Assembly: GCA_008633435.1 (NCBI GenBank)
Contig: RKSL01000030.1
Span: 1 to 33,435 of the forward strand
DNA from: Candidatus Desulfobulbus rimicarensis
GTDB taxonomy: Bacteria; Desulfobacterota; Desulfobulbia; Desulfobulbales; Desulfobulbaceae
DNA length: 33,435 bases
Reading direction: 5' to 3'
Positions within the stretch are counted from its first letter, which is position 1; each line of letters opens with the position of its first letter. Position numbers and translations under genes: made by a program. Below the pieces are notes generated by a model. That model had not been told where the DNA came from, ran no database searches, and saw only the letters and a program-made list of their open reading frames with translations. Below, in pieces: positions 15,426-31,290 of this stretch.

Positions 15426-15554
15426 ATGCAACAGGAAGATGAAAAAACCATTTTTTGCTATGCCGTTCACTTTGGGACTAAGGTTTTCCCATACATAATG
15501 AAACTGGCCGGCAGGTGGCACCGGGTGTCTGGATATGCTGAAATGGGCAGATAA
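15426..15554 (+). CDS. 42-codon small ORF overlapping the sigma-factor start
   Basis: The ATG at 15426 is preceded by AAGGAG (within 15411-15420) at 7-base spacing, a better ribosome-binding site than the sigma gene itself has. It encodes 42 aa beginning MQQEDEKTIFCYAVHFG and ending YAEMGR, with no recognisable domain. Its stop codon lies 20 bases inside the ECF sigma gene in a different frame, the usual geometry for translational coupling. It may be a leader peptide whose translation opens the sigma start. It could also be a chance frame; conservation would decide. Confidence 0.45.
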   Translation: MQQEDEKTIFCYAVHFGTKVFPYIMKLAGRWHRVSGYAEMGR

Positions 15555-16080
15555 AAAAGCAGGGCACCGGCAGTTTCGGGAGGATCTGGTGGAGCTCTTA
15601 CCCCGGCTGCGGCGTTTTGCTCTTTCGTTGACCGGAAATCTGGATGATGCGGATGACCTTGTTCAGGCTGCCTGTGAGCGGGCCTTGTCTCGTCGTCACC
15701 AGTGGAGACCCGGAAGCAGGCTCGACAGCTGGATGTTTAAAATTATTCATACAATGATGATTGATGAGGCCAGATCCATGCGTAAACGTCAACCTCATTA
15801 TTCCTTTGAAGAAGAGCGTTTTAACAAGGGATTAAGTGATGGAGTGAAAAAAATTGAGGCAAGATTACAGTTGGAAAAGGTAGCTCATGCCATGCGTGAA
15901 TTACCGGATAATGACCGGATGATTTTATCGCTGGTCTGCGTTGACGGGCAATCCTACAGGGACGCGGCTGAGGTCTTGCAGCTTCCGGTGGGGACGGTCA
16001 TGAGCAGGTTGGCCCGGGCAAGAAAGAAATTGCACGTTTTACTGGCTGCACCTCTTGGGAACACAACCGGAGGAAGGTGA
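15535..16080 (+). CDS. RpoE-like ECF sigma factor
   Basis: 181 aa extracytoplasmic-function sigma-70 factor. Region 2 spans about residues 20-85 (DDADDLVQAACERAL and the WMFKIIHTMMIDEARSMRKR recognition stretch). Region 4 spans about 115-170 (RELPDNDRMILSLVCVDGQS, then the HTH VLQLPVGTVMSRLARARKKL). The ATG at 15535 has no strong ribosome-binding site, which fits coupling to the small ORF at 15426. The next gene, an anti-sigma factor, overlaps by ATGA (16077-16080). The pair would be held at the membrane and released by an envelope signal. Convergent neighbours are the lipid-type operon ending at 16980; a regulatory link is only a suggestion. Confidence 0.92.
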   Translation: MLKWADKKAGHRQFREDLVELLPRLRRFALSLTGNLDDADDLVQAACERALSRRHQWRPGSRLDSWMFKIIHTMMIDEARSMRKRQPHYSFEEERFNKGLSDGVKKIEARLQLEKVAHAMRELPDNDRMILSLVCVDGQSYRDAAEVLQLPVGTVMSRLARARKKLHVLLAAPLGNTTGGR

Positions 16081-16874
16081 TGACTGAACAGGAAAAAATA
16101 GAAAAAAGCGTGACCGATGAAATGATAATGGCCTATGTGGATGGGGAGCTGGCCTTCGAAGAGCAGGAGATGGTTCGGGCAGCTCTTACCGCAGACCCGG
16201 AGCTTTGTCGCAGGGAAGCGCTTTTTCGGGAAACCGCCACAGCCCTTGATGGAGCCTTTGATGCGCCCATCCATGAAGAGGTGCCGGAGCGGTTACTGAA
16301 TGTAGTGTATCCGCCGGAGAGCAAGTCGCTGCTGTCGTGGTTTCAGCAGTGTATTGCCGGGGGTTCTTCCCTGTTGCAACCTGTGCCTGCCGGGGCATTC
16401 GCCCTGATTATTCTTACAGGTATTGTGTTGCTGTTGAACAGGCCGATCCTTTCCCCGCAGCCGGGAGTCCAGACGCTGCTTTCCGGTCGGGCGTTTGACC
16501 ATATTCTTGAAACAGTGTCAAGCGGCAGTTCTGCCGCTGTTACCCTGGGGGATGATGTCGTGCGGATAACCCCGGTACTCACCTTTCAGGATGGGGAGAG
16601 GAGGTTCTGCCGACAGTTTGAACTTGCAGGTGTTGATGTTGACAGTCTGAACGGACAGGGGCTTGCCTGCCGGAGTATGCAGGGGGGGTGGGAACTTGTG
16701 CTGGTCGAAGAGCAGTCAGCGCAACAGGATGCTTCGAGCCAGCAGCAGGGCTATGAACTTGCCGGTGGAGAGGATGCTGTTGACCGGAAAGTCGAGGCGT
16801 TGCGGTCTGGTCATCCACTGACGCCTGCTCAGGAGAGATTATGTATCGGGCAGGGATGGGATTGCGGGACATGA
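16077..16874 (+). CDS. transmembrane anti-sigma factor
   Basis: 265 aa. The cytoplasmic N-terminus carries the anti-sigma signature (DEMIMAYVDGELAFEEQEMV, residues 9-30), without the His/Cys ligands of zinc-binding anti-sigma factors. A single membrane segment (GAFALIILTGIVLLL) lies near residues 101-116, followed by a ~145-residue extracytoplasmic domain that includes two Cys residues (RRFCRQFELAG and GLACRSMQGG) able to form a disulfide. The ATG overlaps the sigma-factor stop by ATGA, so the two are made in balance. It most likely sequesters the adjacent ECF factor. The sensory domain is not one I can name. Confidence 0.85.
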   Translation: MMTEQEKIEKSVTDEMIMAYVDGELAFEEQEMVRAALTADPELCRREALFRETATALDGAFDAPIHEEVPERLLNVVYPPESKSLLSWFQQCIAGGSSLLQPVPAGAFALIILTGIVLLLNRPILSPQPGVQTLLSGRAFDHILETVSSGSSAAVTLGDDVVRITPVLTFQDGERRFCRQFELAGVDVDSLNGQGLACRSMQGGWELVLVEEQSAQQDASSQQQGYELAGGEDAVDRKVEALRSGHPLTPAQERLCIGQGWDCGT

Positions 16875-16979: not shown

Positions 16980-17624
16980 TTAGCATAGAGTTTTGTACAC
17001 TGTCTCGGCCAGTTCCTGTTCGCGGGAGCGGAAAAAATGGTCTGTGTCGGGGAGAGTAATAACGGTTTTGCTTAAGGTGTCGGCCAGCTCGTCTGTCGGG
17101 GTCAGGTCGTCATCTGCTGCAAGGATGACATTGACTGGCAGCGGAGTCTGTTTAAGAGGAGAGAAATCGTGGTCATGCAGTGGTGGGGTAATGGCTGTCA
17201 GTGAGAGTGTCTGCCCTTCTTGAGCCACGTGTTGTCCGATAAAAGCACCAAAGGAATAGCCGATAAGATGATGACTGGAAAACAGTTTTTTGCTCCAGGA
17301 GAGCAGGCGTGCAGTATCGTCAATAATTTCTGAAAAATCGTTGCGTTGATCAAGTCTGTCCCAGAATTCAAACAGGGGGAGATCGGGTTCCGGGGTACTG
17401 CTTTTGCCCACGGCGCGATAGTTGAAGAGCAGCACGGGGAAGAATGGACAGAGTGTTTGTGCCAGCGTCTGCACCACGTTATTGTCTATGTTTCCGGCCA
17501 GGAGCGGGTGGGGCGGACAGAGTATGATACCGCAGGAGCTTTGGGCTGAGCTATAGAGCAGACGGGCTTCCAGCCTGCCGATGGCGCAGGGGATAAAGAG
17601 TTCTGTATCGTGGTTCTGCTCCAT
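16980..17624 (-). CDS. alpha/beta hydrolase (COG2945-like)
   Basis: 214 aa serine hydrolase. The nucleophile elbow GYSFG is at residues 122-126 (Ser124). A catalytic Asp is expected in AADDDLTP near 172 and His in DTDHFF near 196. The N-terminal motif (CPPHPLLAGNIDNNVVQTLA, then LLFNYRAVGKSS) is typical of the COG2945 subgroup, some of which act on acyl or thioester substrates. There is no signal peptide, so it is probably cytoplasmic. It is the last gene of the seven-gene operon; its start shares one base with the upstream ligase stop (TAATG at 17624). Possible jobs are editing thioesterase or release of the acyl product. Confidence 0.85.
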   Translation of the reverse strand: MEQNHDTELFIPCAIGRLEARLLYSSAQSSCGIILCPPHPLLAGNIDNNVVQTLAQTLCPFFPVLLFNYRAVGKSSTPEPDLPLFEFWDRLDQRNDFSEIIDDTARLLSWSKKLFSSHHLIGYSFGAFIGQHVAQEGQTLSLTAITPPLHDHDFSPLKQTPLPVNVILAADDDLTPTDELADTLSKTVITLPDTDHFFRSREQELAETVYKTLC

Positions 17625-18673
17625 TAATAGACGCCGCTGCTCTGGTTTTGTTCGGGGAGCTTAAGGGGGCGAACGTTAGTGATTGTTCTGAAATCACCAG
17701 CGGTAACATAGTTGCCGCAGTCCCGTTCCATCAGGTTGATCAGCAAAAATGAAGGGTCAAGTCGGTGTAGTACGACCCTTCCTGTTTCACCGGCCTGTTG
17801 TACTGTCTGTAAATCGATGTCATCGTCGCTGGCTGTCGGCACAAGTTGCAGCCAGAGAGCCGGATCATCCATGGTAAAAACGGAATTCTGATCTGGTGCG
17901 GGTTCCTCCTGCTCAAATGTTACTCCAAACAGGCTGTTACCGTAGCCGGGTAGAATGACCGCATTGGGAAAATGGTGGTGGAGTGAGGCTGTCATCTCCT
18001 TGGTCTGCACCATGCCTCCGGTGTGGATGCCGCGTATTTGCAGCCGTTGTCGGCTGTTCATCTGTTCGGCTAGTGCGCTGAGCAGGATGGGGGTGGTAAA
18101 GAGCACATCAATGTTCTGGCTGGCAATAATGTTCATGGCCTGGTCAAGCACATGTTCAAGGTAGAGAGTAAAGCCCAGCGACGGTTGATGCTGTCTGCGG
18201 AACCAGCGGACATCACAGTCCACGGAAAACGGTTCGAGGCTCTCCACAGCTCTTGCCATGTGTCGGGCTGCCTGGCCAATGATGTGTGGGCCGCCCGGGC
18301 CGACAAACAGCCACCTGCCCTTTACTGGAAAATTTCTCTTGGCAACAGCGTATAACCAGGGACGAATAAAGGCATGGTTAAATTCTTTCGGGGTAAACAC
18401 CCTGCGGCAGGGTGTGCCGGTGGTGCCTCCGGTTTCAGAGAGAATCATTTTTGGCAGTTCGGGCAGAAGTGCTGCCGGAATAAAATCGGTAATCGGTCGA
18501 CTGCGGAGCTGGTCAAGGCGCATGGGGCCGAGCAGGTGAAAATCTGCGCAGGTGCGGATCTGTTTGCGTGCGTCAAGAGAGCGTTTCTGTTCCTGTTCGA
18601 GCCAGTAGGGCGTTCCTTTTTCGGGATCAAAATGGATTGCCAGGATTGTTTGAATCAGCTGCTTGTGAATCAT
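17624..18673 (-). CDS. LuxE/PaaK-like acyl-activating (AMP-forming) enzyme
   Basis: 349 aa member of the adenylate-forming LuxE/PaaK group, which activates carboxylic acids as acyl-adenylates for transfer to a protein Cys or CoA. The ATP-binding loop SETGGTTGTP is at residues 79-88, followed by FTPKEFNHAFIRPWLYAVAK and GPGGPHIIGQ; the HTGGMVQTKE and LPGYGNSLFG motifs are typical of the family. Starting at the ATG at 18673, with AGAGGAT upstream, gives a family-like N-terminus; a longer frame from 18763 lacks similarity and overlaps the RND gene. It is one base after the exporter stop. LuxE partners a thioester reductase in bioluminescence; here the SDR in the same operon could play that part (inference). 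Confidence 0.82.
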   Translation of the reverse strand: MIHKQLIQTILAIHFDPEKGTPYWLEQEQKRSLDARKQIRTCADFHLLGPMRLDQLRSRPITDFIPAALLPELPKMILSETGGTTGTPCRRVFTPKEFNHAFIRPWLYAVAKRNFPVKGRWLFVGPGGPHIIGQAARHMARAVESLEPFSVDCDVRWFRRQHQPSLGFTLYLEHVLDQAMNIIASQNIDVLFTTPILLSALAEQMNSRQRLQIRGIHTGGMVQTKEMTASLHHHFPNAVILPGYGNSLFGVTFEQEEPAPDQNSVFTMDDPALWLQLVPTASDDDIDLQTVQQAGETGRVVLHRLDPSFLLINLMERDCGNYVTAGDFRTITNVRPLKLPEQNQSSGVY

Positions 18674-18674
18674 G

Positions 18675-20666
18675 CTATCCTCTCTGTGCATTGTTTTCTT
18701 CGCCCGTGAGCAGCAGTGCCGGAAGCAGCACCAGATCACAGAAAATGGCCAGCCACATGGCAAGACTGATCAACAGACCAAAGTTACGCAGCGGCAAAAA
18801 AGGTGAGGCCGCAAACCCGAGAAAGCCGACGCCTGCCACCAGACTGGTAGTCATCATGGCCGGGCCGGCATAGTCAAACACCTGCTTCAGGGTTTCAGTG
18901 CGGCTGTTGTCGGCTTTACGCAAATGTTGCCAGCTGTGGAGAAAATGGATGGTGTCGTCCACAACAATACCAAAGACTATGGAGGCAACGGTGACAGTGG
19001 CAACACTGAGCGGAATACCGATGACACCCATGGCACCAAGTACCAGAAGGACGGGTAGAATATTAGGTAAAATGGCCAGCAGTCCCAGCTTCCATGAACG
19101 GAGAACACACCCCATAACAAGAGAGATAGCCAGAAAAGCCGCACTGAAGCTGCTCACCAGGGTGGCAAAGAGCGTTTTCTGTCCCCGGGTATAGAGCGGC
19201 ACTGAACCGGTTATGTAGGGGAGTTTCCGCGGGCCAAAACAGAGCTGGCAAAAGGTTTCGACTTTATTGACCAGTTCAAGGGTTTTTTCCGAGGCCATGG
19301 TGCGGGTGAGCAGGGTAATCCGGCTGATGTCTTCAAGCATGAAGTCAAGATCTGCCATGGTGAGGAATTCTGCCCCTTGCCGGGTTGCTTTGGGGACAAC
19401 AAGACCACTGGGAAAGGTGTAGAGAATATGGGTGATTTCCGGGTTGGCCTCTGCCAGCAGCGCCATGTTTTTTTCAATTGCTCTGTTGGACTGGCGGGTG
19501 TTGACAAGGTCTAGTTCAATGGGTGTCAGGCCAATCCCTGCGCCCTCTATAGCCTGGTAATCTCGTCGTACAGGTGATTCCCCACTGAAAAAATCAAGAA
19601 TAAACGAGCCACGTTGCAACTGTTGTGCCCCAATTATCCCCAGCACAAGGGCGAGAGCCATGCCCGGCAGGATGAGCTTCTTCTGGCGAGAGATCAGCTG
19701 GTGTAGCGTGCTGAAAAACGGAAAAGAGTATCCGCGCTCTGTAGGTTGAAAAAACAGCGGTAGCAGGAGCAGGGAGGTGACAAGGGAGAGCAGCGTACCG
19801 ATGGCTCCCCAGAGGCCGAGTTGCTGTACCGGCTGATAATTGCTGAGCAGCAGGGATAAAAAGCCCAGCGCTGTGGTCAGCCCGGACAGGAGGCAGGGCA
19901 GGGCAACTCTGGAAAGAATGGCCATGGGGTTCTGGCCGGGTTCTGCTTGTTTTGTGACCAGATGAATGGCGTGTGAAATGCCAAGAATCATGGTTAGAGG
20001 AGGGAGTGCCAGTAAAATCATATTCATCTTGATTCCGGCAAGGCCCATCAGCCCGGTGAGCTGTAATCCTGGTAACAATCCGCAGGCCATAATGAGCGTG
20101 GTGTTGCGGATGTTACGAAGTAACAGGATAAGCATAGCGCAAAGCAGGGTAATAACCAGCGGAAACATGGTGCTTGTGGAGCGGGCTGAGAGTTTATCCA
20201 GCCTGTCTGTGAGCAGCCAGACCCCGCCCAGGCTGGCCTTGTCTTGCCCTGTCCGGGTGAGGACGTTTTCTGCATCTGCGAGCAGGGCAGAGAGTTGTTT
20301 CGGGCTGGTCGTGTATTGAGGGACAAGCGTGATAAGCACAGCTTTTCCCCCGTTTTTCGGGGTTATGCCAAGGGCTGTCACATGGTCAACATGGCGGATC
20401 TGTTGAAGTTGACTGGTCAGGGAATCCGATGTCTCAAGCGTGCGTCCGGGCAGGTAGATGAGCAGCGGATCGGTTATTTGGTGTTCCTGACGAAACTGCT
20501 GATACCTGTGCCATTGCGGATCATCATTGCTCTGCCAGACCGGCAGGGAGTTATCGACAGTACTCTGCATGGCTCCGTAGCCGCAGACGATTGTAGTCAG
20601 CGCCAGCAGAAGAAGAATCAGCGAGGAGCGGGCCCGGATGGCCAGAAAAAAATCAGTTGTTCGCAT
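18675..20666 (-). CDS. MMPL/RND-superfamily lipid exporter
   Basis: 663 aa inner-membrane protein with the RND/MMPL two-fold plan: membrane segment 1 (LILLLLALTTIVCGYGAM), an extracytoplasmic loop of about 130 residues, five segments between about 170 and 315 (FPLVITLLCAMLILLLRNI, then MILLALPPLTMILGISHAIH), a seventh near 335 (LILPGMALALVLGIIGAQQL), a second loop and a last group of five (515-655). The GDxxxD-like region IVVDDTIHFLHSW near 600 is typical of the HAE3/MMPL class, which moves hydrophobic or lipid-like molecules such as hopanoids and mycolates to the outer envelope. It has neither MFP nor OMF neighbours. It sits 6 bases after the aminotransferase stop, in the same operon, and is the likely product exporter. 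Confidence 0.9.
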   Translation of the reverse strand: MRTTDFFLAIRARSSLILLLLALTTIVCGYGAMQSTVDNSLPVWQSNDDPQWHRYQQFRQEHQITDPLLIYLPGRTLETSDSLTSQLQQIRHVDHVTALGITPKNGGKAVLITLVPQYTTSPKQLSALLADAENVLTRTGQDKASLGGVWLLTDRLDKLSARSTSTMFPLVITLLCAMLILLLRNIRNTTLIMACGLLPGLQLTGLMGLAGIKMNMILLALPPLTMILGISHAIHLVTKQAEPGQNPMAILSRVALPCLLSGLTTALGFLSLLLSNYQPVQQLGLWGAIGTLLSLVTSLLLLPLFFQPTERGYSFPFFSTLHQLISRQKKLILPGMALALVLGIIGAQQLQRGSFILDFFSGESPVRRDYQAIEGAGIGLTPIELDLVNTRQSNRAIEKNMALLAEANPEITHILYTFPSGLVVPKATRQGAEFLTMADLDFMLEDISRITLLTRTMASEKTLELVNKVETFCQLCFGPRKLPYITGSVPLYTRGQKTLFATLVSSFSAAFLAISLVMGCVLRSWKLGLLAILPNILPVLLVLGAMGVIGIPLSVATVTVASIVFGIVVDDTIHFLHSWQHLRKADNSRTETLKQVFDYAGPAMMTTSLVAGVGFLGFAASPFLPLRNFGLLISLAMWLAIFCDLVLLPALLLTGEENNAQRG

Positions 20667-20672
20667 GATCAG

Positions 20673-22121
20673 TTATCTGCCGGTCAGGGCACCTGTCCAG
20701 GAGGTAAGAAACTTTAACCCTGCCGAGGACAGGGCATGGTTGACCCTGGTCTTGATCAGCTCCTTTGGTCCCTGACCAAGCAGGTCGTCCAGGGAGGAAA
20801 TAAAATAGTCCAGCTCTTTTTCATCAATAATAAGCGGAGGATAGACTCTGAGCACAGAACGGTTGTTGAGCATCAGTGTGCCAAGAATACCAAACTGTTT
20901 GAGCAGCGCCGCAGCCACCATGCCGGGTAAATGTTCCCTGAGGATATTTTTTAATCCCGGAATATGAAGCGGCAGGTATGATTTTGCCTGGTTGAGGATA
21001 TTTTCGTCAAACTCTATACCGATCATCAAGCCGCGGCCGCGTACTTCCCTGATCCATCCTGGGTGTTTTTGCTGCACCTGTTTCAACCCCTTGACCATTG
21101 TTCTGCCCAGACGCTCTGCCCGTTCGGCAAGATCGTCGTTGATGTAGACCTCCAGTGCGGCCATGGCAGCAGCGCAGGCCGTGGATCGCCCACCAAAGGT
21201 TGAGGTTTGCACCAGGCATTCATGGGGGTTGCCATAGGCGGTGGCAAAGACGTGTTCGCTGCAGACGGTGGCTCCGATTGAGGCGATTCCACCACCAAGC
21301 GATTTGGCCAGCACCAGAATATCAGGAATAACCTGCTCATGGTTGCAGGCAAACATGGTTCCGGTACGGCACATGCCGGTCTGGATTTCATCGAGGATGA
21401 GCAGCACTCCGTGACGGTCGCAGATCGAGCGTACTTCCTGCAGATACCCCGCAGGCGGGATAATCACCCCGGCTTCGCCCTGGATGGGTTCAAGGATGAC
21501 ACCTGCAATCTGTTCTCTGTTGTTTTTGTCTGTCAGCACGTCGTCAATGGCCTGGCTGTCTCCAAACGGCACCTCAAAACCGGGCAGTAAGGGGAAATGT
21601 TCACGCAGACGGGGGGCACCGGTAAATGAGAGCGCTCCCAGAGTTTTGCCGTGCAGGGAATTTTCGGCATAAATAAATCGGGGGCGCTGTCCTTTAAAAC
21701 AGCGGGCGGCCAGTTTCAGGGCAGCTTCAGTGGCTTCAGTACCGGAGTTGCAGAAATAGAGTTTGTTGAGATCGCCCGGGGTTATCTGGCTTAGATTACC
21801 GGCAAGGCAGGCTGCGTAAGGGGAGAGCAACTCTTTGGAAAGATCAACCCGTTGACAGCTCAGCAGCTCACGTACTGCGGCGCTGACTTTGGGGTGGTTA
21901 TGACCAAGATTGAGGGCTCCGTAGGAAGAGACAAAATCAAGGATTTTTTTGGTGTCAGTTGTGGTTATAACTGCGCCTTCTGCCCTGAGCGGCTCGATAG
22001 TCGTGTATTCTCCCATTTCCAGCAATGTTACCAGTCCGGGATTAATATGCTGACGAAATAACTCTACTGTTTTTGAACGTGGCTGGTTGGGCACCTCGGT
22101 TACCTTGATCATAGCTGTCAT
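20673..22121 (-). CDS. class III PLP-dependent aminotransferase
   Basis: 482 aa fold-type I enzyme of the acetylornithine/putrescine/4-aminobutyrate group. Visible features are the GTEATEAALKLA phosphate-binding stretch (127-138), Asp244 in LILDEIQTG for the pyridine nitrogen, and Lys273 in VLAKSLGGG for the Schiff base. The C-terminus is about 30 residues longer than usual (KTRVNHALSSAGLKFL). Enzymes of this class often convert an aldehyde to a primary amine, as MxcL does after a reductase in myxochelin synthesis. That is the most economical role here, next to the thioester-reductase-like SDR whose stop shares one base with this start (TAATG at 22121). The natural substrate is unknown. Confidence 0.9.
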   Translation of the reverse strand: MTAMIKVTEVPNQPRSKTVELFRQHINPGLVTLLEMGEYTTIEPLRAEGAVITTTDTKKILDFVSSYGALNLGHNHPKVSAAVRELLSCQRVDLSKELLSPYAACLAGNLSQITPGDLNKLYFCNSGTEATEAALKLAARCFKGQRPRFIYAENSLHGKTLGALSFTGAPRLREHFPLLPGFEVPFGDSQAIDDVLTDKNNREQIAGVILEPIQGEAGVIIPPAGYLQEVRSICDRHGVLLILDEIQTGMCRTGTMFACNHEQVIPDILVLAKSLGGGIASIGATVCSEHVFATAYGNPHECLVQTSTFGGRSTACAAAMAALEVYINDDLAERAERLGRTMVKGLKQVQQKHPGWIREVRGRGLMIGIEFDENILNQAKSYLPLHIPGLKNILREHLPGMVAAALLKQFGILGTLMLNNRSVLRVYPPLIIDEKELDYFISSLDDLLGQGPKELIKTRVNHALSSAGLKFLTSWTGALTGR

Positions 22122-23581
22122 TATACATGCCCCTTCTGGTAGGGATATCGGGAAAAGAATTCTTCCAGAGCCGTTGCCGTGCGCAACCCTTCTCTGGTAT
22201 TACCGTTAATGTTGATCTGTCCCCGGAAAAATCCATCCTGCGGTGAACGTTCTGCGCAGACAACCTGTAAAAAGGTTTCCGGGGTAACAGTATAGCCAAA
22301 ATCTCCTGCCTTGCCAGGGGCGACCGCACGAAGACAACCTGTGACAATGCGGATGTGCCAGGTGCCGACATTAAGAATTTTCAGCCAGAACAATGTGTTG
22401 AGGCTGCTCAGGTTTTTCAGTAAAGGCTGGTCAAGAAATCCTGGAAGAAAGCCGTTGAAATAGTCGGAAATGCCTTCGGATGCAGGCGGTTGCAGCTGGC
22501 GAGTTGTCGATTTTCTGGAGGTATTTGTTCTGTTGGTTTTACATGAAAGAAAGCGTGAAAAAGCTGCCAGTACTTCTTCGGTGGTCAGTCCCGGTAGGGT
22601 GTTTTTGCCCAGGGCCTTGTTGAGGTTGTGCCGGGAGAAGGTCAGGTCAAGATCAAGATAGTCGGCATACACTCTGGTTCGGCGGGACAGCAATTCTTCT
22701 GCTGGACGCAGTGGTTGTCGGCGGATTTCTTCTCCGGTTGCCCAGCGCACGACTTTTCTGCCAAATGCCTGGTTAAAGAGCAGTTCGATTTCCTCATTGG
22801 CAAATGTGCTGCTGCTGGTCAGGTGGTATGTTGTGTTGTGGCTGTCCGGGAGTTCTGCGAGTGTAAATATTGCATCTGCAACCATATCGTCAAAGACAAA
22901 GGGCATGGATTGCTGTCGGTTGCCCCGCACCCGGATTATTGCAGGGGTGAGCTTGTTACGTTGCTCTGCAAGAAGGAGGCGAAACAATGCGTCAAGAAAG
23001 GTAAACGGGCCAAAATTTCCTCCTGAATCACTGTCTGGATTGCGCTCCAGGATAATACCGGGGCGGTATATTGTTATTTTTGGGATAGTCAGCTGTTGCT
23101 GCTGTTGTCGAAGGAAAGATTCGCCCAGAAATTTGCTCTGTTCATAAAAGTTGCGGAATTGTTGCCCCTGATCAAGCATTGACTCGGCAAAAATCCCCTT
23201 GTATTTGCCACAGACAAAGGCCGTACTGATATGGTGGAGCGGAGCCTTTGCAGCCATTGCAAACCTGTAAATATTTTGTACTCCGTCAATATTGGTCGGC
23301 TTGTACTCAGCAAGGCTGGTGCCTTTAAAGTCGGTGCGGGCTGCCAGATGAAAGATTTGCCCCGTTTTTTCGGCCAGCTTCTGGCAGGTATTGGTATCGA
23401 GCCCGAGTAGAGGGTGGGAGACATCACCACGCACCCATTGCAGGGAGGGGGTGTCTGCATAGATGGATGGGTCAGGGGTGCGGCAGACGACTATGACTTG
23501 TCGGCCTGCGGCAAGCAGCTTTCTGACCAGATATTTTCCCAGAATGCCGGTACCGCCGGTAACAAGAACAGTCGTGCTCAT
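22121..23581 (-). CDS. thioester-reductase-like SDR fused to SCP2-like domain
   Basis: 486 aa. Residues 1-340 are an extended SDR of the male-sterility/thioester-reductase (fatty acyl reductase) type: GGTGILG nucleotide-binding motif at 9-15, FHLAARTDF at 77-85, and the YxxxK pair at Tyr146/Lys150 (YEQSKFLGE). After a low-complexity Arg/Thr/Pro linker near 350-375, residues about 400-480 resemble an SCP2 sterol/lipid carrier domain (WHIRIVTGCLRAVAPGK and FGYTVTPETFLQVVCAERSP). SCP2 domains bind acyl chains or sterols, so the fusion suggests the reductase takes a lipid substrate. Overlaps: ATGA with the U32-like gene and TAATG with the aminotransferase. The reaction proposed is acyl-thioester to aldehyde; oxidation of a 3-hydroxyl is an alternative. 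Confidence 0.82.
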   Translation of the reverse strand: MSTTVLVTGGTGILGKYLVRKLLAAGRQVIVVCRTPDPSIYADTPSLQWVRGDVSHPLLGLDTNTCQKLAEKTGQIFHLAARTDFKGTSLAEYKPTNIDGVQNIYRFAMAAKAPLHHISTAFVCGKYKGIFAESMLDQGQQFRNFYEQSKFLGESFLRQQQQQLTIPKITIYRPGIILERNPDSDSGGNFGPFTFLDALFRLLLAEQRNKLTPAIIRVRGNRQQSMPFVFDDMVADAIFTLAELPDSHNTTYHLTSSSTFANEEIELLFNQAFGRKVVRWATGEEIRRQPLRPAEELLSRRTRVYADYLDLDLTFSRHNLNKALGKNTLPGLTTEEVLAAFSRFLSCKTNRTNTSRKSTTRQLQPPASEGISDYFNGFLPGFLDQPLLKNLSSLNTLFWLKILNVGTWHIRIVTGCLRAVAPGKAGDFGYTVTPETFLQVVCAERSPQDGFFRGQININGNTREGLRTATALEEFFSRYPYQKGHV

Positions 23582-24789
23582 TTGGTCATGTCCTGTTGTT
23601 GGCTCTGGTGCTGCCAGTTTTTGGTGGCACGGGCTGTTTCTTCCCGGCTGGGGATGTGGCTGACCAGCTTATGGATGTTGCGTTGCATAGTATTAATATA
23701 GTGTTGCCGCAGTGCATCATCACCCCAGTTGAGGGCAGTTTTGCTCCAGTTGTGGCAGTGGTTGCAGCCGTCACAACCAAGGCGGCAGTCCCTGGTTTTT
23801 CGGGCAAAAAAATCGAGAAAGCCATCAAGTTTATGGTTGTCGAGATAAATGTCAAGATCCGGCAGAATAGAGCCGTCTGGCTGGGTGTTAAACTGTTGCC
23901 AGTGGGGCCAGCCCAGCAGATCGAGCAGGTTGCCGGAAAATGACCTTCCAAGATATGCCCGGCATAGCCGGAGAATCTCGTCTTCCGGCAAACCACGACC
24001 GGCCAGCTTGAAATAGCGGATGCCTGATTCTTCCCAAAGCCCCATATCCTCAGGGCGCAGCCATGGGCTTTTGAGAAATTCTCCTTCCCGTTGCAGTTTT
24101 TCCAGGAAACACCAGTTGAGATAGAACTGGTTGTATGGTGTTCCTCCAGGATTCTCAGGACTGTCATGGGAACCAAAGGCGGCAACGCCGTAATGGTTAT
24201 GCTTGTAGTGACATTGATAAATACAGACAGTGTTCACTATCAGTTCAATCGGCAGCGGGCTGTGTCCCATGGCCTGCTTGAGAAAAGTGAAGTCCCGGTT
24301 GACTTCAACATCGAGCACAACCCGCTTTGCGCCGGCTCTGTGGAATTGCTCAAGCCCTCGGATGGAATCAACATAGCCAATGGTGGAGACCACGATTTCA
24401 AGTTCAGGGAAAGTGGCCTGGATAATTTCGATCAAGTAAGGAATGGTCACGGTGACAGAGCTGACCCCGCATTCCACCAGAAAACTGAGTATCTGTTGAA
24501 ATTCTCTGCGACCTTCATGGGTATATTCCAGATTTGCGTAATATGGCGCATTGAAGAGATAATTAAAGCGCAAACCCCGCATCTTGACTGCTTTGACGTG
24601 GGCAGCAAATTGTTCTTTTGAGAGTCCGGGAAGGTATTTTGCCGGTCTGGCCGAGTTGAAGCGGGAGTGCTGTAGTGATCCATAAAGCTCAAAAACACGA
24701 TTTTCAGCGGCATGCTGCTGGTCGTTGAGGGTAACAATCTTTTCCAGAAAGCTGTCGGTAAATGTGGTTGGAACTGTCAGCAGGATCAT
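23578..24789 (-). CDS. peptidase-U32-like protein with Cys-rich C-terminus
   Basis: 403 aa U32/collagenase-like TIM-barrel family member (ELYGSL near residue 35, SVTVTIPYLIEII near 111, VLDVEVNRDF near 158). The conserved IELIVNTVC-IYQC stretch supplies C189 and C193, the place where U32 proteins such as UbiU/V and TrhP coordinate [4Fe-4S]. A second Cys group C335-X3-C339-X2-C342-X2-C345 (CRLGCDGCNHCH) lies near the C-terminus. Several U32 proteins perform O2-independent hydroxylation rather than proteolysis. There is no signal peptide. It sits between the pentahaem lipoprotein and the SDR, overlapping each by ATGA. An O2-independent modification in the pathway is possible, but the family's substrate range is broad. 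Confidence 0.78.
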   Translation of the reverse strand: MILLTVPTTFTDSFLEKIVTLNDQQHAAENRVFELYGSLQHSRFNSARPAKYLPGLSKEQFAAHVKAVKMRGLRFNYLFNAPYYANLEYTHEGRREFQQILSFLVECGVSSVTVTIPYLIEIIQATFPELEIVVSTIGYVDSIRGLEQFHRAGAKRVVLDVEVNRDFTFLKQAMGHSPLPIELIVNTVCIYQCHYKHNHYGVAAFGSHDSPENPGGTPYNQFYLNWCFLEKLQREGEFLKSPWLRPEDMGLWEESGIRYFKLAGRGLPEDEILRLCRAYLGRSFSGNLLDLLGWPHWQQFNTQPDGSILPDLDIYLDNHKLDGFLDFFARKTRDCRLGCDGCNHCHNWSKTALNWGDDALRQHYINTMQRNIHKLVSHIPSREETARATKNWQHQSQQQDMTK

Positions 24790-25820
24790 TGGACTTTGCC
24801 AGTCGTGGTTCTTGCCAGTTGCAGGGCAGTCGCTCTGCCAGTCTGTTTGAGGACAAGTTGCAGTGAGTAACTGGTACCCTGATGGAGCGGTTTGCCAAAA
24901 CTATCCTGTGATAGAGTAAAGCGCTTACTGCCACCGGGCTGGAGAGGGTTGTCTGTGTCGCTGACCAGTAGTGTCGCCGAAGGTGGGAGGGGCATGTTTA
25001 CAGTATGTTTTGGCAAAAGAACAAGCATAAGAGAGGATTCTGTATATTCCCCACCGGGGAGGTTGTGAGGGAGCTGGTTGGTTATCCTGATCTGGAGCTG
25101 GTTGTATGGGGCTCTTGTTGTGTCTATTCGCACTGCGCCTGGGAAATTTGTCAACGTGGCAAGGTCGATGGTGTGGCTGCGCACCTCATGGGTATCTTCA
25201 AACGAGACAAGGAGTTTTGAAAACATGTTGGTGCCACGGGTTGACGTTCGTGTAACCTTAGCCATGTGACATTCCTGACATTGGGGTAGAGGCGTATTGT
25301 CTTTGTGGGCAGAGACACTTTTTTCCCAGGTGGAAAAGGTCTCTTCATGGCAGACACCACAGAGTCCACTTGATGTATAAAAGGCTGGGTCAGCCTTGAC
25401 CGGGTGAGGGGTGATCAGGGCAGAGCTGTCATGGGGGCCATGCATTGCGTTCGCATCGAGATGGCAGGATGTGCAGGTAATCCCTTCTGCCAGAGAATAA
25501 TGACGAGGAGTTAACTCGTCGCTTCGAATGTTTTCCGGAATGTGGCAGGCCAGGCAGCTTTCGTCTTCATAGTTATCTGTAGCCTTGCGAAAGAGCGGGT
25601 CTGAATAGGCAAGATTATGGGCTGAGCCATGCCATTCTCTGAATTGGTCAACATGACATGAGCCACAGTCAGTCGCCCCAGGGCCGGTTCCTGCCTGTCG
25701 GTCAACGGCTGTCAGGTGGCTGAATCCGGAACAACCTTGAAAAAGCAGAAGAATCGGGAAAGAGAACAGGAGGATATAGCGAGTGGATTTCGGCTGAGTA
25801 CAAAGGAAGTGTTTATGCAT
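24786..25820 (-). CDS. pentahaem c-type cytochrome, predicted lipoprotein
   Basis: 344 aa. A lipobox-like signal (SFPILLLFQGCSGF) near residues 20-33 places a lipidated Cys at the cell envelope. Five CXXCH haem motifs follow: CGSCH, CLACH, CTSCH, CGVCH and CQECH, in the first 60% of the protein. The spacing and the WHGSAHNLAYSDPLF segment, with a His likely to serve as a distal ligand, recall cytochrome c554-type proteins. The C-terminal ~130 residues are a beta-rich domain without haem. I used the ATG at 25820; an in-frame TTG at 25832 is possible. It is the first gene of the operon, behind a good promoter at 25879-25906. An electron-transfer function is clear; the partner is not. Confidence 0.88.
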   Translation of the reverse strand: MHKHFLCTQPKSTRYILLFSFPILLLFQGCSGFSHLTAVDRQAGTGPGATDCGSCHVDQFREWHGSAHNLAYSDPLFRKATDNYEDESCLACHIPENIRSDELTPRHYSLAEGITCTSCHLDANAMHGPHDSSALITPHPVKADPAFYTSSGLCGVCHEETFSTWEKSVSAHKDNTPLPQCQECHMAKVTRTSTRGTNMFSKLLVSFEDTHEVRSHTIDLATLTNFPGAVRIDTTRAPYNQLQIRITNQLPHNLPGGEYTESSLMLVLLPKHTVNMPLPPSATLLVSDTDNPLQPGGSKRFTLSQDSFGKPLHQGTSYSLQLVLKQTGRATALQLARTTTGKVQ

Positions 25821-27058: not shown

Positions 27059-27091
27059 TAGAAAAAATAACAATTGACAATAGGCATTGTG

Positions 27092-27769
27092 ATGAAAGAT
27101 ACCCTGAGAATGACCCATCAGCGGGAAGTGATTCTTGATGAGCTGGGCAAAGTAAAGACGCATCCTACGGCAGATTCTTTGTACGAAAGGGTGAAAAAGC
27201 GATTGCCCAGAATAAGTCTTGCCACGGTTTATCGTAACCTGGAAATTCTTTCTGAGGCGGGGATGATCAGGAAACTTGAGATCAGCGGTCGGCAGAAGCG
27301 GTTTGACTGGGATCTGGAGCAGCACGATCATATTTTCTGTGTGCAGTGTCAGCGGGTTGATAATCTTGAGCTCAAGTCGCAGCAGAGGATTTCTCTGCCG
27401 ACAGAGGATGACAAGGGGTACCAGATAGATGGTTGCCGGGTTGAGTTTTATGGTGTTTGTCCCCAATGCCAGAAAAAAAATGCGAATCCAAAGAAAAAGA
27501 GAGGGACCAAAAAAATGGATTGTAAACCAAAATCCTGCGGATCGGGTGGGGGGTGTAAGGCTGGCTTGAGTGAGCGACAGCAGGAAGTCCTTGAAGCTCT
27601 TGCCAAATGTGATAAAGCTTGTGGTAGTAAGGATATTGCCGCAGCCACGTCTCTTGAGCCAAAACAGATCAGTTGTCAGATAACTGCGCTGAAAAAGAAA
27701 GGGCTGGTGGCCAGCCCGGCGCGTTGTAAATATGAAATAACTCAAGATGGCCGCAAGGCCCTGTCGTAA
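27092..27769 (+). CDS. perR: PerR/Fur-family regulator with C-terminal extra winged helix
   Basis: 225 aa. Residues 1-~125 are a Fur/PerR unit: MTHQREVILDEL, the recognition helix RISLATVYRNLEILSEAG, and the HDHIFCVQCQRVDNL metal-site region with two CXXC pairs (CVQC and CPQC) as in zinc-structured PerR. A Lys-rich linker then leads to an extra domain: MDCKPKSCGSGGGC and a winged-helix-like tail (LSERQQEVLEALAKCDKACG, then SLEPKQISCQITALKKKGLV). Ordinary PerR is about 140-150 aa. The ATG at 27092 starts the usual MKDTLRMTHQRE N-terminus; a TTG at 27074 is in frame. Twelve bases separate it from rubrerythrin, so it likely controls the peroxide-defence operon it heads. Confidence 0.85.
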   Translation: MKDTLRMTHQREVILDELGKVKTHPTADSLYERVKKRLPRISLATVYRNLEILSEAGMIRKLEISGRQKRFDWDLEQHDHIFCVQCQRVDNLELKSQQRISLPTEDDKGYQIDGCRVEFYGVCPQCQKKNANPKKKRGTKKMDCKPKSCGSGGGCKAGLSERQQEVLEALAKCDKACGSKDIAAATSLEPKQISCQITALKKKGLVASPARCKYEITQDGRKALS

Positions 27770-27780
27770 GGAGAATGACC

Positions 27781-28356
27781 ATGGCGGAATTGAAAGGCTC
27801 TAAAACAGAAACGAATATCCTTACAGCTTTTGCAGGGGAATCCCAGGCGCGAAATCGGTATTCGTTTGCGTCCAAGGCTGCAAAAAAAGAAGGTTTTGTT
27901 CAGATTGCTGCGATTTTTGAACGAACAGCTGAACAGGAGCGGGCTCATGCCAAGACGTTGTTCAAACTGCTGGAGGGCGGAGATGTGCAGGTGAGCGCGT
28001 CTTTTCCCGCAGGCATTATTGGCACGACCATGGAAAACCTGGAAGCTGCCGCGGCTGGTGAAGAACATGAATATATGGAGATGTATCCTGAGTTTGCCGA
28101 GGTGGCTAAAGAGGAAGGGTTTCCAGTCATCGCTGCGATTTTTACAGCCATTGCCAAGGCCGAAAAGCAGCATGCCAAACAGTACCGTGATTTTATTGCC
28201 AACCTGAAAGAGGGCAAGGTGTTTAAACGTGATGAAACCATGATTTGGTATTGCGCGAAATGTGGATATGTCCACGAAGGCACAGAACCCCCTAAGAAAT
28301 GTCCGGCATGCGCCCATCCGCAAAGTTATTTTGAGCTGCTTGGTGAGAACTGGTAG
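27781..28356 (+). CDS. rbr: rubrerythrin
   Basis: 191 aa, the classic length. The N-terminal diiron four-helix domain has ligand motifs ESQARNRY (about residue 20), EQERAH (about 53), EEHEY (about 97) and EKQH (about 130). The C-terminal rubredoxin-like FeS4 domain is YCAKCGYV and KKCPACAHP (about 158-180). Rubrerythrin reduces H2O2 to water in anaerobes, taking electrons from rubredoxin. I chose the ATG at 27781 because AGGAG lies 7 bases upstream; the ATG at 27775 would be too close to it. It is 11 bases behind perR and presumably cotranscribed. Confidence 0.96.
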   Translation: MAELKGSKTETNILTAFAGESQARNRYSFASKAAKKEGFVQIAAIFERTAEQERAHAKTLFKLLEGGDVQVSASFPAGIIGTTMENLEAAAAGEEHEYMEMYPEFAEVAKEEGFPVIAAIFTAIAKAEKQHAKQYRDFIANLKEGKVFKRDETMIWYCAKCGYVHEGTEPPKKCPACAHPQSYFELLGENW

Positions 28357-28380
28357 CGCAGGATTTGTTAGAATAATGCC

Positions 28381-28530
28381 TGTCCCAAAATGGTCTTTTT
28401 GTCCGATTTCTGCGTCATGCTCAAAACATAATACTGGGAATATCCGGTCTGCGCTTATTTTTTTCGCAATCCTCGGAGTCTCCCGTCGGTCGCTTACCTG
28501 AGCTCGAACAAAAATCCTCATTTTTGGACA
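28381..28530. repeat. palindromic intergenic element, copy 2 (covarying-arm family)
   Basis: Outer arms TGTCCCAAAATGG (28381-28393) and its partner at the right end (CATTTTTGGACA, 28519-28530) pair with few mismatches. The inner core TTTGTCCGATTTCTGCGTCA on the left and CCTGAGCTCGAACAAAAAT on the right matches copies 1 and 3. The element fills most of the rbr-prx gap (28357-28588). Confidence 0.72.
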
Positions 28531-28588
28531 GACACTAGAAGAGATTGAATGAAAAATTATTAAAAGACTATTACGGAGATATATTTCA

Positions 28589-29182
28589 ATGAGCACTTTA
28601 GTCACCAGGCAGGCACCCGATTTTACAGCAACCGCTGTTATGGGAGATAATTCTTTTAAAGATGATTTCAAACTTTCCGATTACCGGGGGAAGTATGTAA
28701 TTCTCTTCTTCTATCCCCTTGATTTTACCTTTGTCTGTCCATCGGAGATTATTGCCTTTGATAAGGCACTGGCAAAGTTTCAGTCAAAAAATTGTGAAGT
28801 GATTGGCGTTTCCATTGACTCGCAGTTTAGCCATTTTGCCTGGAAAAATACGCCGGTTAATGAAGGTGGGATCGGCAATGTTCAGTATCCGCTGGTTGCA
28901 GATCTTGACAAGAAAATTTCACGTCAGTATGGAGTGTTGCTTGATATGGGCGTGGCGCTACGCGGTACCTTCCTTATTGATAAAGAAGGCGTTGTTCGTC
29001 ATGCGGTAATTAATGATCTGCCCCTTGGTCGTTCCATTGATGAGGCTCTGCGCATGGTGGATGCCCTGGAATTTCATGAGACCCATGGAGATGTCTGCCC
29101 TGCCAACTGGAAAGAGGGCGAAGATGCGATGACGCCAACAGCTGATGGTGTGGCAGATTACCTGGCAAAACATGCTGGATAA
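28589..29182 (+). CDS. typical 2-Cys peroxiredoxin (AhpC/TSA)
   Basis: 197 aa thiol peroxidase that removes H2O2 and organic peroxides in the cytoplasm. The peroxidatic Cys50 is in [10 protein letters not shown] and the resolving Cys170 in HGDVCPANW, the pair that defines the typical 2-Cys class. The N-terminal [20 protein letters not shown]-like segment and the [15 protein letters not shown] stretch are family hallmarks. The ATG follows GGAG at about 10 bases. No AhpF is nearby; thioredoxin or rubredoxin-type partners would be needed. The repeat element at 28381-28530 separates it from rbr, so it may have its own promoter. Confidence 0.95.
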
Positions 29183-29209
29183 AAGACGTATTTTCTGCTG
29201 TACCATGGC

Positions 29210-29232
29210 CCGGAGGAGGCTGTCTTCTCCGG
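29210..29232. other. small hairpin between prx and dfx
   Basis: CCGGAG (29210-29215) and CTCCGG (29227-29232) can pair around an 11-base loop. No T-tract follows, so it is a weak or Rho-dependent signal at best. Confidence 0.35.
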
Positions 29233-29268
29233 AATAGAGAAGATGTTAATAGAAAAGGAGAAGTACCC

Positions 29269-29643
29269 ATGACTAAAAAAAATGAAGTGTATAAGTGTCC
29301 TTTGTGCGGAAATGTGGTCGAAGTTATGCACACGGGTGCCGGTGAGCTTGTCTGCTGTGGTCAGCCCATGGATTTAATGAGCGAAAATACCGTTGATGCC
29401 GCCCTGGAGAAACATGTGCCTTTGGTCGAGAGCGTTGCCACTGGTTTCAAGGTTTCAGTGGGGTCTGTGGCTCATCCAATGGAAGATAAACACTGGATTG
29501 AGTGGATTGAGCTTATTGCCGATGGCAAGGTGTACCGCCAGAATCTTAAACCCGGTGATACCCCTGAGGCTACGTTTTGTGTAGAAGCTTCTGAGGTAAC
29601 TGCTCGCGCATATTGCAATCTGCATGGAAACTGGCAGTCCTGA
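29269..29643 (+). CDS. dfx: desulfoferrodoxin (superoxide reductase)
   Basis: 124 aa class I superoxide reductase (2Fe type). The N-terminal desulforedoxin site is C10, C13, C29, C30. The catalytic Fe centre has H49, H69, H75 and H119 with C116 as the axial thiolate, and the conserved E47-K48 pair. It reduces superoxide to H2O2 without producing O2, with electrons from rubredoxin. The ATG follows AAGGAG at 8 bases. Two rubredoxin genes begin 2 bases after the stop, matching the electron chain. Confidence 0.97.
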
Positions 29644-29645
29644 TC

Positions 29646-29855
29646 ATGTCCGCTGCAGAGGAGATGTACCAGTGTCAGACTGTGGATTGTGGATATATTT
29701 ATGATCCTGATCGGGGAGATAGGCGGCGCAAGATACCTGCGGGTACAGCGTTTTCAGATCTTCCGGATGGCTGGCATTGTCCAAGCTGCGGAGCCGGGAA
29801 AAAGATGTTCAGGCCTTTGGCCGGTCCTGGTTCAACTATACAAGATGGAATTTAA
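29646..29855 (+). CDS. rubredoxin with CX4C first knuckle (copy A)
   Basis: 69 aa electron carrier with one Fe(SCys)4 site. The first Cys pair is C-QTVD-C, with four residues between cysteines, not the usual two; the second pair is CPSC. Otherwise it is rubredoxin-like (GYIYDPDRGD, then FSDLPDGWHCPSCGAGKK). The N-terminal extension MSAAEEM and C-terminal tail RPLAGPGSTIQ differ from the 52-aa form. I recall similar "type 2" rubredoxins in some sulfate reducers. It starts 2 bases after dfx, probably translationally coupled, and it has a near-duplicate immediately downstream. Confidence 0.93.
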   Translation: MSAAEEMYQCQTVDCGYIYDPDRGDRRRKIPAGTAFSDLPDGWHCPSCGAGKKMFRPLAGPGSTIQDGI

Positions 29856-29870
29856 TCTGGAGTTATTCGA

Positions 29871-30080
29871 ATGTCTCAACCCGAAGAAATGTATCAATGC
29901 CAGACTGTAAACTGTGGGTATATATTTGATCCTGACAAAGGGGATCGGAAAGGAAAAATAAAAAAAGGAACTTCTTTTAAGGATATTCCCGATGACTGGC
30001 GTTGTCCAGTTTGCGGGGCAACTAAAAAGGCATTTAAACCTCTCGCAGGTCCGGGGTCGGTAATTGAGGAAAATTCCTGA
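29871..30080 (+). CDS. rubredoxin with CX4C first knuckle (copy B)
   Basis: 69 aa, same length and plan as the preceding gene: C-QTVN-C, then CPVC, with the same PLAGPGS tail. It has more Lys ([15 protein letters not shown]) and was probably formed by tandem duplication. It has its own GGAG at 8 bases before the ATG, 15 bases after the previous stop. Electron donor to superoxide reductase, rubrerythrin or the flavodiiron protein is the likely role. Confidence 0.93.
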
Positions 30081-30107
30081 TTGGCAAGATCTTTACATAA
30101 ACAAGCA

Positions 30108-30190
30108 TGGCTGGATCATAATCGCCAGCCACAAAAAGCTATGAAAGTCGGTCACTGGGGCGTGATCCGTTCGTAAGTGCTGCGACTTTC
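30108..30190. other. two hairpins after the rubredoxin pair
   Basis: TGGCTGG (30108-30114) pairs with CCAGCCA (30125-30131). GAAAGTCG (30143-30150) pairs with CGACTTTC (30183-30190). Both are perfect. Neither has a T-run, so they are structural or repeat remnants in the 231-base gap before the third rubredoxin. Confidence 0.45.
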
Positions 30191-30311
30191 AGATAAAGCG
30201 CAATGCCTTGATGGCACAATAAGCTAAGAGAATCAATAGGTTACGCTATAAAGATCGCGCAGCCCGATTTTCAGATAAATAAATTCAAAACAGAACTAAA
30301 AGGATAGAACC

Positions 30312-30470
30312 ATGAAAAAACAGCGATGTCTTGTGTGTGGCTATGAGTATGATCCGGAAGCAGGTGACCCCGGCAACGGAGTTGCCCCGGGGACTGCCTG
30401 GGAAGATGTGCCTGATGACTGGTGTTGCCCAGTTTGCGGCGCTGGTAAAGATGAGTTTGAAGAAGTGTAA
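30312..30470 (+). CDS. canonical rubredoxin
   Basis: 52 aa, the classical size. The first Cys pair is CLVC and the second CPVC, giving the standard CX2C twice; [19 protein letters not shown] and WEDVPDDW are typical rubredoxin motifs. The ATG at 30312 has AAAGGA about 8 bases upstream. It sits after a 231-base gap, so it may have its own promoter. A strong terminator follows at 30484-30520. It is the third rubredoxin of the cluster and the best candidate for the partner of the flavodiiron protein or rubrerythrin. Confidence 0.95.
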
Positions 30471-30483
30471 ATTATTCTCTTTT

Positions 30484-30520
30484 AACACCACCTTCCCTGA
30501 TTGGGAGGGTGGTGTTTTGT
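30484..30520 (+). terminator. intrinsic terminator after canonical rubredoxin
   Basis: AACACCACC (30484-30492) pairs with GGTGGTGTT (within 30508-30516), with an inner TCCC/GGGA stem, followed by a T-rich tail (TTTTGTTTG). It is suitably placed 14 bases after the stop. Confidence 0.8.
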
Positions 30521-30535
30521 TTGTTGTAAGCTGAT

Positions 30536-30555
30536 TTTTGTATTATTTGTATAAT
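30536..30555 (+). promoter_or_regulatory. -10 box within AT palindrome before the DsrE-like gene
   Basis: ATTAT-ttgt-ATAAT (30542-30555) ends in the TATAAT box at 30550-30555, 35 bases before the ATG at 30591. The 9-mer TTTTGTATT (30536-30544) recurs before the flavodiiron gene (31242-31250). The -35 is weak. Confidence 0.4.
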
Positions 30556-30590
30556 TCATTTTTCAACAAACAAAAAAACGAGGTATTTCA

Positions 30591-30938
30591 ATGAGTAAAA
30601 CAGTGTTGTTTGCGTTTCGTGGTGATCCCATGTGTTTTGTGCATGTTCTTCTCAATGCTCTTGAGTTGGCAGAAAATGACATGGAAGGAAGAATTGTGGT
30701 TGAGGGTGATGCAGTAAAGTTAATCCCTGAGATGAGTAAAACCGATCATTTTTTGCACCAGTTATACACCAAGGTGCGCGAGAAAAATCTCATTATCGGA
30801 GCCTGTAAGGCCTGTTCAACAAAACTCGGTGTTGCCGAGGCTGTCAAAGCTGAAGGGGTTGAACTCATTGGGAGCATGGCTGGGCATCCAGCGGTTGGTG
30901 AATATCTCAGGCAGGGATATACAGTTCTTACATTTTAG
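30591..30938 (+). CDS. DsrE-family-like small protein
   Basis: 115 aa, with the DsrE/DsrF-like alpha/beta fold: KTVLFAFRGDPMCFVHVLLN at the start and GACKACSTKLGVAEAVKAEG in the second half. The GACKAC segment supplies two Cys residues (CKAC) at the position where DsrE-type proteins carry a sulfur-transfer Cys. A GAGG lies 8 bases before the ATG. Its role next to oxygen-defence genes is unknown; sulfur-trafficking or redox sensing are both possible. It follows the canonical rubredoxin terminator, so it is a separate transcript. Confidence 0.8.
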   Translation: MSKTVLFAFRGDPMCFVHVLLNALELAENDMEGRIVVEGDAVKLIPEMSKTDHFLHQLYTKVREKNLIIGACKACSTKLGVAEAVKAEGVELIGSMAGHPAVGEYLRQGYTVLTF

Positions 30939-30943
30939 GCCAC

Positions 30944-31286: not shown

Positions 31287-31290
31287 CATA

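Follow-up and report, generated by a model that had tools for sequence, protein, structure and literature searches.

A horizontally mobile seven-gene cassette of Desulfobulbales that may make and export a hydrophobic amine without oxygen

Contig RKSL01000030.1 of Candidatus Desulfobulbus rimicarensis carries, within the 33,435 nucleotides analysed here (called the window below), seven co-directional open reading frames (ORFs) on the minus strand, starting at 25820 and ending at 16980, that encode, in order, a cytochrome, a U32-family protein, a short-chain dehydrogenase/reductase (SDR) fused to an SCP2 domain, an aminotransferase, an MMPL protein, a ligase and a hydrolase. The cassette is an undescribed cluster of known enzyme kinds, and the U32 clade is its most interesting member. 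We give about an even chance to the hypothesis that it is a horizontally mobile biosynthesis-and-export cassette through which a hydrophobic primary amine is made without oxygen. The reactions, their order and the product are what we infer from features that can be seen directly, namely the protein families with their invariant catalytic residues, the conserved gene order and shared inheritance, and the reappearance of most of these parts in a distant genome (G540).

Seven genes inherited as a unit

The seven genes, in order of transcription, are as follows:
24786..25820, minus strand: pentahaem c-type cytochrome lipoprotein, 344 residues (five CxxCH motifs, signal peptide, Pfam Cytochrome_C554)
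23578..24789, minus strand: U32-family protein, 403 residues, no transmembrane segment (Pfam Peptidase_U32, fold match)
22121..23581, minus strand: thioester-reductase-type extended SDR (residues 1-350) fused to SCP2 (about 388-471) (NAD_binding_4, SCP2)
20673..22121, minus strand: class III pyridoxal-phosphate (PLP) aminotransferase, 482 residues (Aminotran_3, PigE/YgjG matches)
18675..20666, minus strand: MMPL/HAE3-type RND exporter, 663 residues (TIGR00921, Pfam MMPL, hydropathy)
17624..18673, minus strand: EhpF-type adenylating protein, 349 residues (PDB EhpF, full length)
16980..17624, minus strand: small alpha/beta hydrolase of the XC6422/Atu1826 type (Pfam Abhydrolase_1, PDB matches)

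Read directly from the letters, the cytochrome/U32 and U32/SDR junctions are ATGA overlaps and the SDR/aminotransferase and ligase/hydrolase junctions are TAATG overlaps; the aminotransferase and MMPL genes are 6 bases apart, the largest spacing in the operon, and the MMPL and ligase genes 1 base apart. A sequence-only reading that preceded this work had described seven genes in one direction with gaps of 6 bases or less and repeated ATGA/TAATG overlaps, and both the ORF list and the junctions agree with it. The sole boundary change concerns the ligase, which starts at the ATG at 18673 according to its orthologues, the listed TTG at 18763 being unsupported by them. Pfam and NCBIfam assignments likewise agree in outline with the gene names of that reading, except that the ligase it called LuxE/PaaK-like is EhpF-type and lacks a Pfam LuxE match. 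A search of the window against Rfam returned no match.

Among 258 genomes of the order Desulfobulbales, close orthologues of the U32 protein (53-75% identity to that of the window) are found in 23, the window's included, spread over four families; a second U32 group in the same search (about 30% identity) is separate from them. All seven genes stand in the same order and on the same strand in 14 of the 23 carriers, and the recurrence of this order in 13 genomes other than the window's is far beyond chance. The sequence-only reading had named loss of synteny in relatives as an outcome that would speak against it, and the relatives within the order retain synteny. In one further carrier (G004) the cytochrome gene is cut by a contig end, and six others are also cut by contig ends. 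Two cultured species, Desulfopila aestuarii DSM 18488 and Desulforhopalus singaporensis DSM 12130, are among the carriers. The cassette appears to be decaying in G056, where the locus (L033, G056:C9, 9546-13252) holds only the cytochrome, U32 and SDR genes next to an era-like gene; with the four last genes gone and one nonsense codon in the U32 gene (CGA to TGA, for which a sequencing error is possible), this pattern is that of a decaying unit, and neither the cassette aminotransferase nor the ligase occurs elsewhere in this genome (99% complete). Selenocysteine at the in-frame TGA was considered and rejected, as the codon replaces an invariant Arg.

The genes flanking the cassette differ between genera and families, and the distance matrices of the cassette genes correlate more tightly with one another (r 0.76-0.96) than with radA (0.35-0.71), which together argue that the cassette is one unit. 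In trees, G084, a member of the window's own family, and G237 group with other families; taken with the r values, this placement indicates that the cassette genes have travelled together. Within the genus of the window's organism, two members are without the U32 gene. A U32 profile scan of 84,980 species recovered close orthologues only in records named as Desulfobulbales, the two cultured species among them, or as unclassified Deltaproteobacteria or Proteobacteria, and the contigs of those records match genomes already found in the 258-genome set; a scan of genome contigs with a single SDR protein gave no match, and the U32 profile gave matches. The proposal that the genes form one functional unit is hence borne out by synteny and joint inheritance. 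That they merely lie together in a conserved order, each serving a housekeeping role of its own, is very improbable: each family is indeed common on its own, but the genes have moved jointly and horizontally, their presence is patchy and genomes without an intact cassette show only distant aminotransferase paralogues (31-39% identity). The other case that the sequence-only reading had set against itself, housekeeping roles for the SDR and the aminotransferase, does not materialise either: the cassette aminotransferase is distinct from the housekeeping paralogues elsewhere in the same genomes, which are 31-39% identical to it.

A proposed route from a carboxylic acid to an exported amine

In our hypothesis, a carboxylic acid would first be adenylated by the EhpF-type protein; the activated acyl group would then sit on the SCP2 domain while the SDR reduces it to an aldehyde, which the PigE/YgjG-like aminotransferase would turn into a primary amine. 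This acid-to-amine core is the best-supported part of the mechanism, ahead of the hydroxylation step considered below: relatives of the acid-adenylating family feed aldehyde formation, reductases of the SDR's kind release aldehydes, and the aminotransferase is nearest to one that aminates an aldehyde (PMC8341465).

EhpF (PDB 3l2k / 3hgu) is the only strong match of the ligase profile (E 7e-35, profile 5-352 on chain 21-366); with 349 residues, the ligase corresponds to the ANL superfamily core without the C-terminal domain, and it matches no Pfam family, LuxE included. EhpF/EhpG is the two-component aryl carboxylic acid reductase of D-alanylgriseoluteic acid synthesis. Relatives of the ligase on plasmids are annotated as AMP-binding protein, arylcarboxylate reductase or phenazine biosynthesis protein. 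An aldehyde-dehydrogenase-family gene lies directly beside or after the ligase relative in four of the five plasmid loci inspected, and three of those four sit among chorismate-using genes (phenazine and other chorismate-derived clusters). In grixazone synthesis, GriC/GriD reduce an acid via acyl-AMP to the aldehyde (PMC10179220). The window's ligase is homologous to EhpF from end to end and would share the route from acid through acyl-AMP to aldehyde with EhpF/EhpG and GriC/GriD (PMC10179220); the cassette differs from both in that the partner is an SDR-SCP2 fusion and that aminotransferase, U32 and MMPL genes are added. The LuxC/LuxE system also activates an acid and reduces it to the aldehyde, but the window's ligase has no LuxE match and the operon has no LuxC.

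The SDR matches Pfam NAD_binding_4 (2e-36), and its nearest solved proteins by sequence are MxaA (best), AusA and the reductase domains of carboxylic acid reductases, with MxaA again the best match of the predicted fold. Its Rossmann motif TGxxGxxG (T8-G15) and residues S119, T120, Y146 and K150 are invariant in 14 sequences. In most genomes the SCP2 domain forms part of the SDR protein, and in family f5 it is encoded by a separate, ATGA-coupled gene; its match is weak in the window (3e-4) and clear in the separate f5 gene (3e-8) and in G540 (2e-13). A thioester-reductase SDR also occurs in the myxochelin (MxcG/MxcL), coelimycin and MxaA systems, in the first two with an aminotransferase (coelimycin: PMC9594044), but there the reductase ends a nonribosomal peptide or polyketide synthase, whereas the cassette SDR is free-standing with SCP2 and has no megasynthase.

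The aminotransferase (Pfam Aminotran_3, 8e-89) has PigE as its best NCBIfam model (442 bits) and YgjG as its second (389 bits), matches both in the PDB (YgjG 2e-100, PigE 4e-92) and carries the PLP lysine K273 and D244 in 18 of 18 sequences. PigE aminates an aldehyde, and the conversion of thioesters into amines is known for both PigE and TamH (PMC8341465, PMC9594044); TamA/TamH perform the whole conversion, from a C12 acid to the amine (PMC9594044). The cassette would thus resemble TamA/TamH and PigE in activating, reducing and transaminating an acid to a primary amine with a related class III aminotransferase, but their reductase domains are acyl-ACP-reductase-like and fused to the aminotransferase (PMC9594044, PMC8341465), whereas the cassette aminotransferase stands alone without a fused acyl-thioester reductase domain of this type, and neither system includes the U32, SCP2 or cytochrome components of the cassette.

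The MMPL protein is of the HAE3 type (TIGR00921, 1.5e-35), with 12 transmembrane segments predicted from hydropathy. Characterised HAE3/MMPL proteins are mostly exporters. We propose that this pump would take the product through the inner membrane and that the pentahaem lipoprotein may encounter it there. This lipoprotein has CxxCH motifs at residues 52, 89, 116, 154 and 181, all five invariant across 17 aligned sequences, a lipobox-like LLFQGC and a match to Cytochrome_C554 (1.7e-7). The hydrolase, whose PDB matches are 3trd, 2i3d and 2fuk, has a catalytic triad of Ser124 (the nucleophile, in GYSFG), Asp172 and His196 that is invariant in 12 sequences, and would remove or proof-read an ester or thioester.

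The activate-reduce-transaminate-export logic put forward by the sequence-only reading is therefore upheld by an EhpF-type ligase, a thioester-reductase-type SDR, a PigE/YgjG-like aminotransferase and an HAE3/MMPL exporter. Its description of the pathway as undescribed holds for the complete set, for which we found no paper in the open-licence literature, but not for the logic, which TamA/TamH and PigE already exemplify. The same enzymes could in principle run backwards, in a catabolic or salvage operon: the YgjG-like aminotransferase would deaminate a hydrophobic amine taken up from outside, and the resulting aldehyde would be converted to an acid and activated. The rank of YgjG, a putrescine aminotransferase, as second-best model and the reversibility of aminotransferases are compatible with this direction, but the nearest kin of the SDR are reductases releasing aldehydes or alcohols, EhpF/Gri-type proteins are biosynthetic and MMPL proteins, as said, mostly export; we consider it quite unlikely.

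The U32 protein and a rearranged version of the set

The U32 protein matches Pfam Peptidase_U32 (1e-8; 35.2 bits, cut-off 22.4) and the fold of the U32 protein Mk0906 (5d88). Seven cysteines are invariant over 18 orthologues (C189, C193, C227 and C335-x3-C339-x2-C342-x2-C345), that is, a CX3C pair, one mid-protein cysteine and a C-terminal CX3CX2CX2C, and a CX3-4CX2CX2C motif occurs in 75 of 86 more distant relatives. Judged by sequence, the window's protein belongs to a separate clade and looks like an iron-sulphur (Fe-S) protein. The structure model is of intermediate quality, with a predicted local distance difference test score of 77 that falls below 50 at residues 190-219, which hold C193, and cluster geometry is not argued from it. 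In known systems, the SCP2 protein UbiT acts with the U32 proteins UbiU-UbiV, and a ubiT-ubiU fusion exists in Zymomonas (PMC6747719). The cassette similarly combines SCP2 with a U32 protein, and SCP2 fusions occur in both (PMC6747719); it differs in having a single U32 protein that matches no UbiU or UbiV model (Pfam, NCBIfam), and in that the partners are a ligase, an SDR and an aminotransferase, not Ubi enzymes. The pairing of U32 with SCP2 nevertheless appears to point to oxygen-independent hydroxylation, a step absent from the sequence-only proposal: as UbiU/UbiV do with UbiT, the putative Fe-S protein U32 may, together with SCP2, hydroxylate the substrate without O2 at some point.

When the ligase profile was applied to 395 genomes of the phylum, a single genome outside Desulfobulbales was recovered, G540, in which a rearranged version lies on one contig of a draft genome (L227, G540:C116, 5729-17707), all genes in one direction. 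Homologues of the window's SCP2, hydrolase (29% identity, 125 bits), MMPL (28%, 327 bits) and ligase (38%, 340 bits) are present; next come a multihaem protein, a 678-residue U32 protein, a further class III aminotransferase (32%), a YceI protein and a redoxin-multihaem protein. The halves of this U32 protein match UbiU/TrhP and UbiV, and it contains CX6CX15CX3C, the motif stated for U32 oxidases (PMC11574389). G540 thus brings together parts of the same kinds, its U32 and aminotransferase coming from other branches; this lends support to the conversion of a carboxyl group into an amine and, with less certainty, to a hydroxylation without oxygen of the UbiUVT kind. No second copy of this version came up when relatives of G540 were searched.

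Several observations weigh against the hypothesis of an amine made without oxygen. The CX6CX15CX3C motif is found in none of the 18 U32 orthologues and none of the 86 more distant relatives, so that hydroxylation rests on the SCP2 pairing and the one G540 contig. No SDR lies near the G540 set, where reduction may hence be performed by another enzyme. Known EhpF relatives pair with an aldehyde-dehydrogenase-type reductase, not an SDR, and no such reductase (EhpG/GriD type) is present in the seven-gene operon; moreover, an EhpF-type protein without the C-terminal domain may not make the thioester that a thioester reductase normally needs, and the cassette has no acyl carrier protein (ACP) gene. 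The SDR scores 107.3 bits against NCBIfam TIGR01746 (cut-off 213.35), and the 442 bits of the aminotransferase lie below the PigE cut-off of 850, set for a model that spans two domains where the aminotransferase has one. Finally, the G237 locus lacks the cytochrome, the listed match there belonging to a neighbouring divergent gene group.

Beyond the cassette, fragments holding distant U32 relatives show a strong match to B12-radical S-adenosylmethionine (SAM) enzymes in 23 of 48 and an AMP-binding protein in 14 of 48, the loci not being independent. Apart from a weak MMPL match in a few cases, the remaining enzyme genes of the cassette are not seen next to these relatives, and a plasmid search found no U32 relative. 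In loci L115-L155 (e.g., L116:9929-12712 and L125:9929-12712), a U32 gene with a C-terminal CX4CX2CX2C is followed by a B12-binding radical SAM enzyme, a pair found in many Syntrophaceae and other deltaproteobacterial genomes. Two carriers have a second, fatty-acid-synthase-like cluster (L086, G228:C19, 195-19421; L087, G237:C57), in which a distant U32 gene is accompanied by LuxC, LuxE, FabZ-like dehydratase, FabF-like synthase, MMPL and B12-radical-SAM genes and which could be another anaerobic acyl pathway. These B12-radical-SAM, AMP-binding and LuxC/LuxE neighbours suggest that the U32 clade accompanies acid-activating and radical chemistry.

Candidate products and genomic surroundings

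The sequence-only reading had assumed a hydrophobic acid as substrate, which the SCP2 and MMPL components fit; it need not be a fatty acid, however, as EhpF relatives occur in chorismate-derived aromatic pathways. SCP2 and MMPL would favour a hydrophobic molecule and the EhpF relatives an aryl acid, and both can be true. A simple fatty-amine or fatty-aldehyde cassette, acting on a long-chain acid as TamA/TamH do, with the U32 protein as Fe-S electron carrier or catalyst of an undescribed reaction, is a rather unlikely alternative that draws on the C12 precedent (PMC9594044), on the suitability of SCP2 and MMPL for a lipid and on the missing canonical U32 motif; it accords poorly with the chorismate-derived clusters of the EhpF relatives, with the UbiU-UbiV-like U32 protein that takes the same place in G540 and with the lack of an acyl carrier in the cassette. 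Alternatively, a prenylated or alkylated aryl acid might be hydroxylated by the U32 protein, converted to an aminomethyl compound and exported as an electron mediator working with the pentahaem lipoprotein. U32 hydroxylases do act on rings (PMC6747719, PMC11574389), the EhpF family is at home in phenazine and other chorismate-derived clusters, and multihaem cytochromes accompany both versions of the cassette; since the cassette has no prenyltransferase, chorismate-converting enzyme or ring-forming gene, and the redox role would be conjectural, we regard this aromatic redox-active product as unlikely. An aminohopanoid-type pathway, with an HpnO-like aminotransferase and an HpnN-like exporter, might be suggested by the match of the MMPL protein to the HpnN model (4.8e-27) and the weak match of the SDR to HpnA. 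Squalene-hopene cyclase (TIGR01507) is found, however, in 11 of the 258 genomes and in none of the 23 U32 carriers, the window's genome included; hopanoid synthesis was rejected on this ground, and we give such a pathway almost no credence.

Other genes lie near the operon. An extracytoplasmic function (ECF) sigma factor and anti-sigma gene stand beside its end (15535-16874); this pair was considered as part of the system and rejected, because G004 and other genomes do not have it next to the cassette, and is apparently a local difference. An oxygen-defence cluster (27074-32511), comprising genes for a Fur-family regulator, rubrerythrin-like and peroxiredoxin-like proteins, desulfoferrodoxin and an ODP-flavodoxin, is kept in G001, and a B12-binding radical SAM protein with DUF4070 is encoded outside the operon at 10709-12049.

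Where U32 proteins have been characterised, the oxygen-free hydroxylation that they carry out acts only on ubiquinone and RNA (PMC11574389). Unidentified aminolipids have been reported in Desulfosediminicola, of the Desulfocapsaceae, the family of some carriers (PMC8497536). The boldest form of our hypothesis, in which the cassette makes an exported, anaerobically hydroxylated class of lipid or aromatic amines, with the new U32 Fe-S clade as hydroxylase and the product possibly a redox mediator in the envelope together with the pentahaem lipoprotein, is speculative, though worth stating. If the hypothesis of an amine made without oxygen is true, the cassette and its G540 relative would extend oxygen-free hydroxylation by U32 proteins to the specialised metabolism of strict anaerobes. 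A different combination of parts may have served here to build an acid-to-amine conversion, and the cassette provides a concrete gene set in two cultured sulfate reducers, organisms with a little-explored chemistry of lipids and metabolites.

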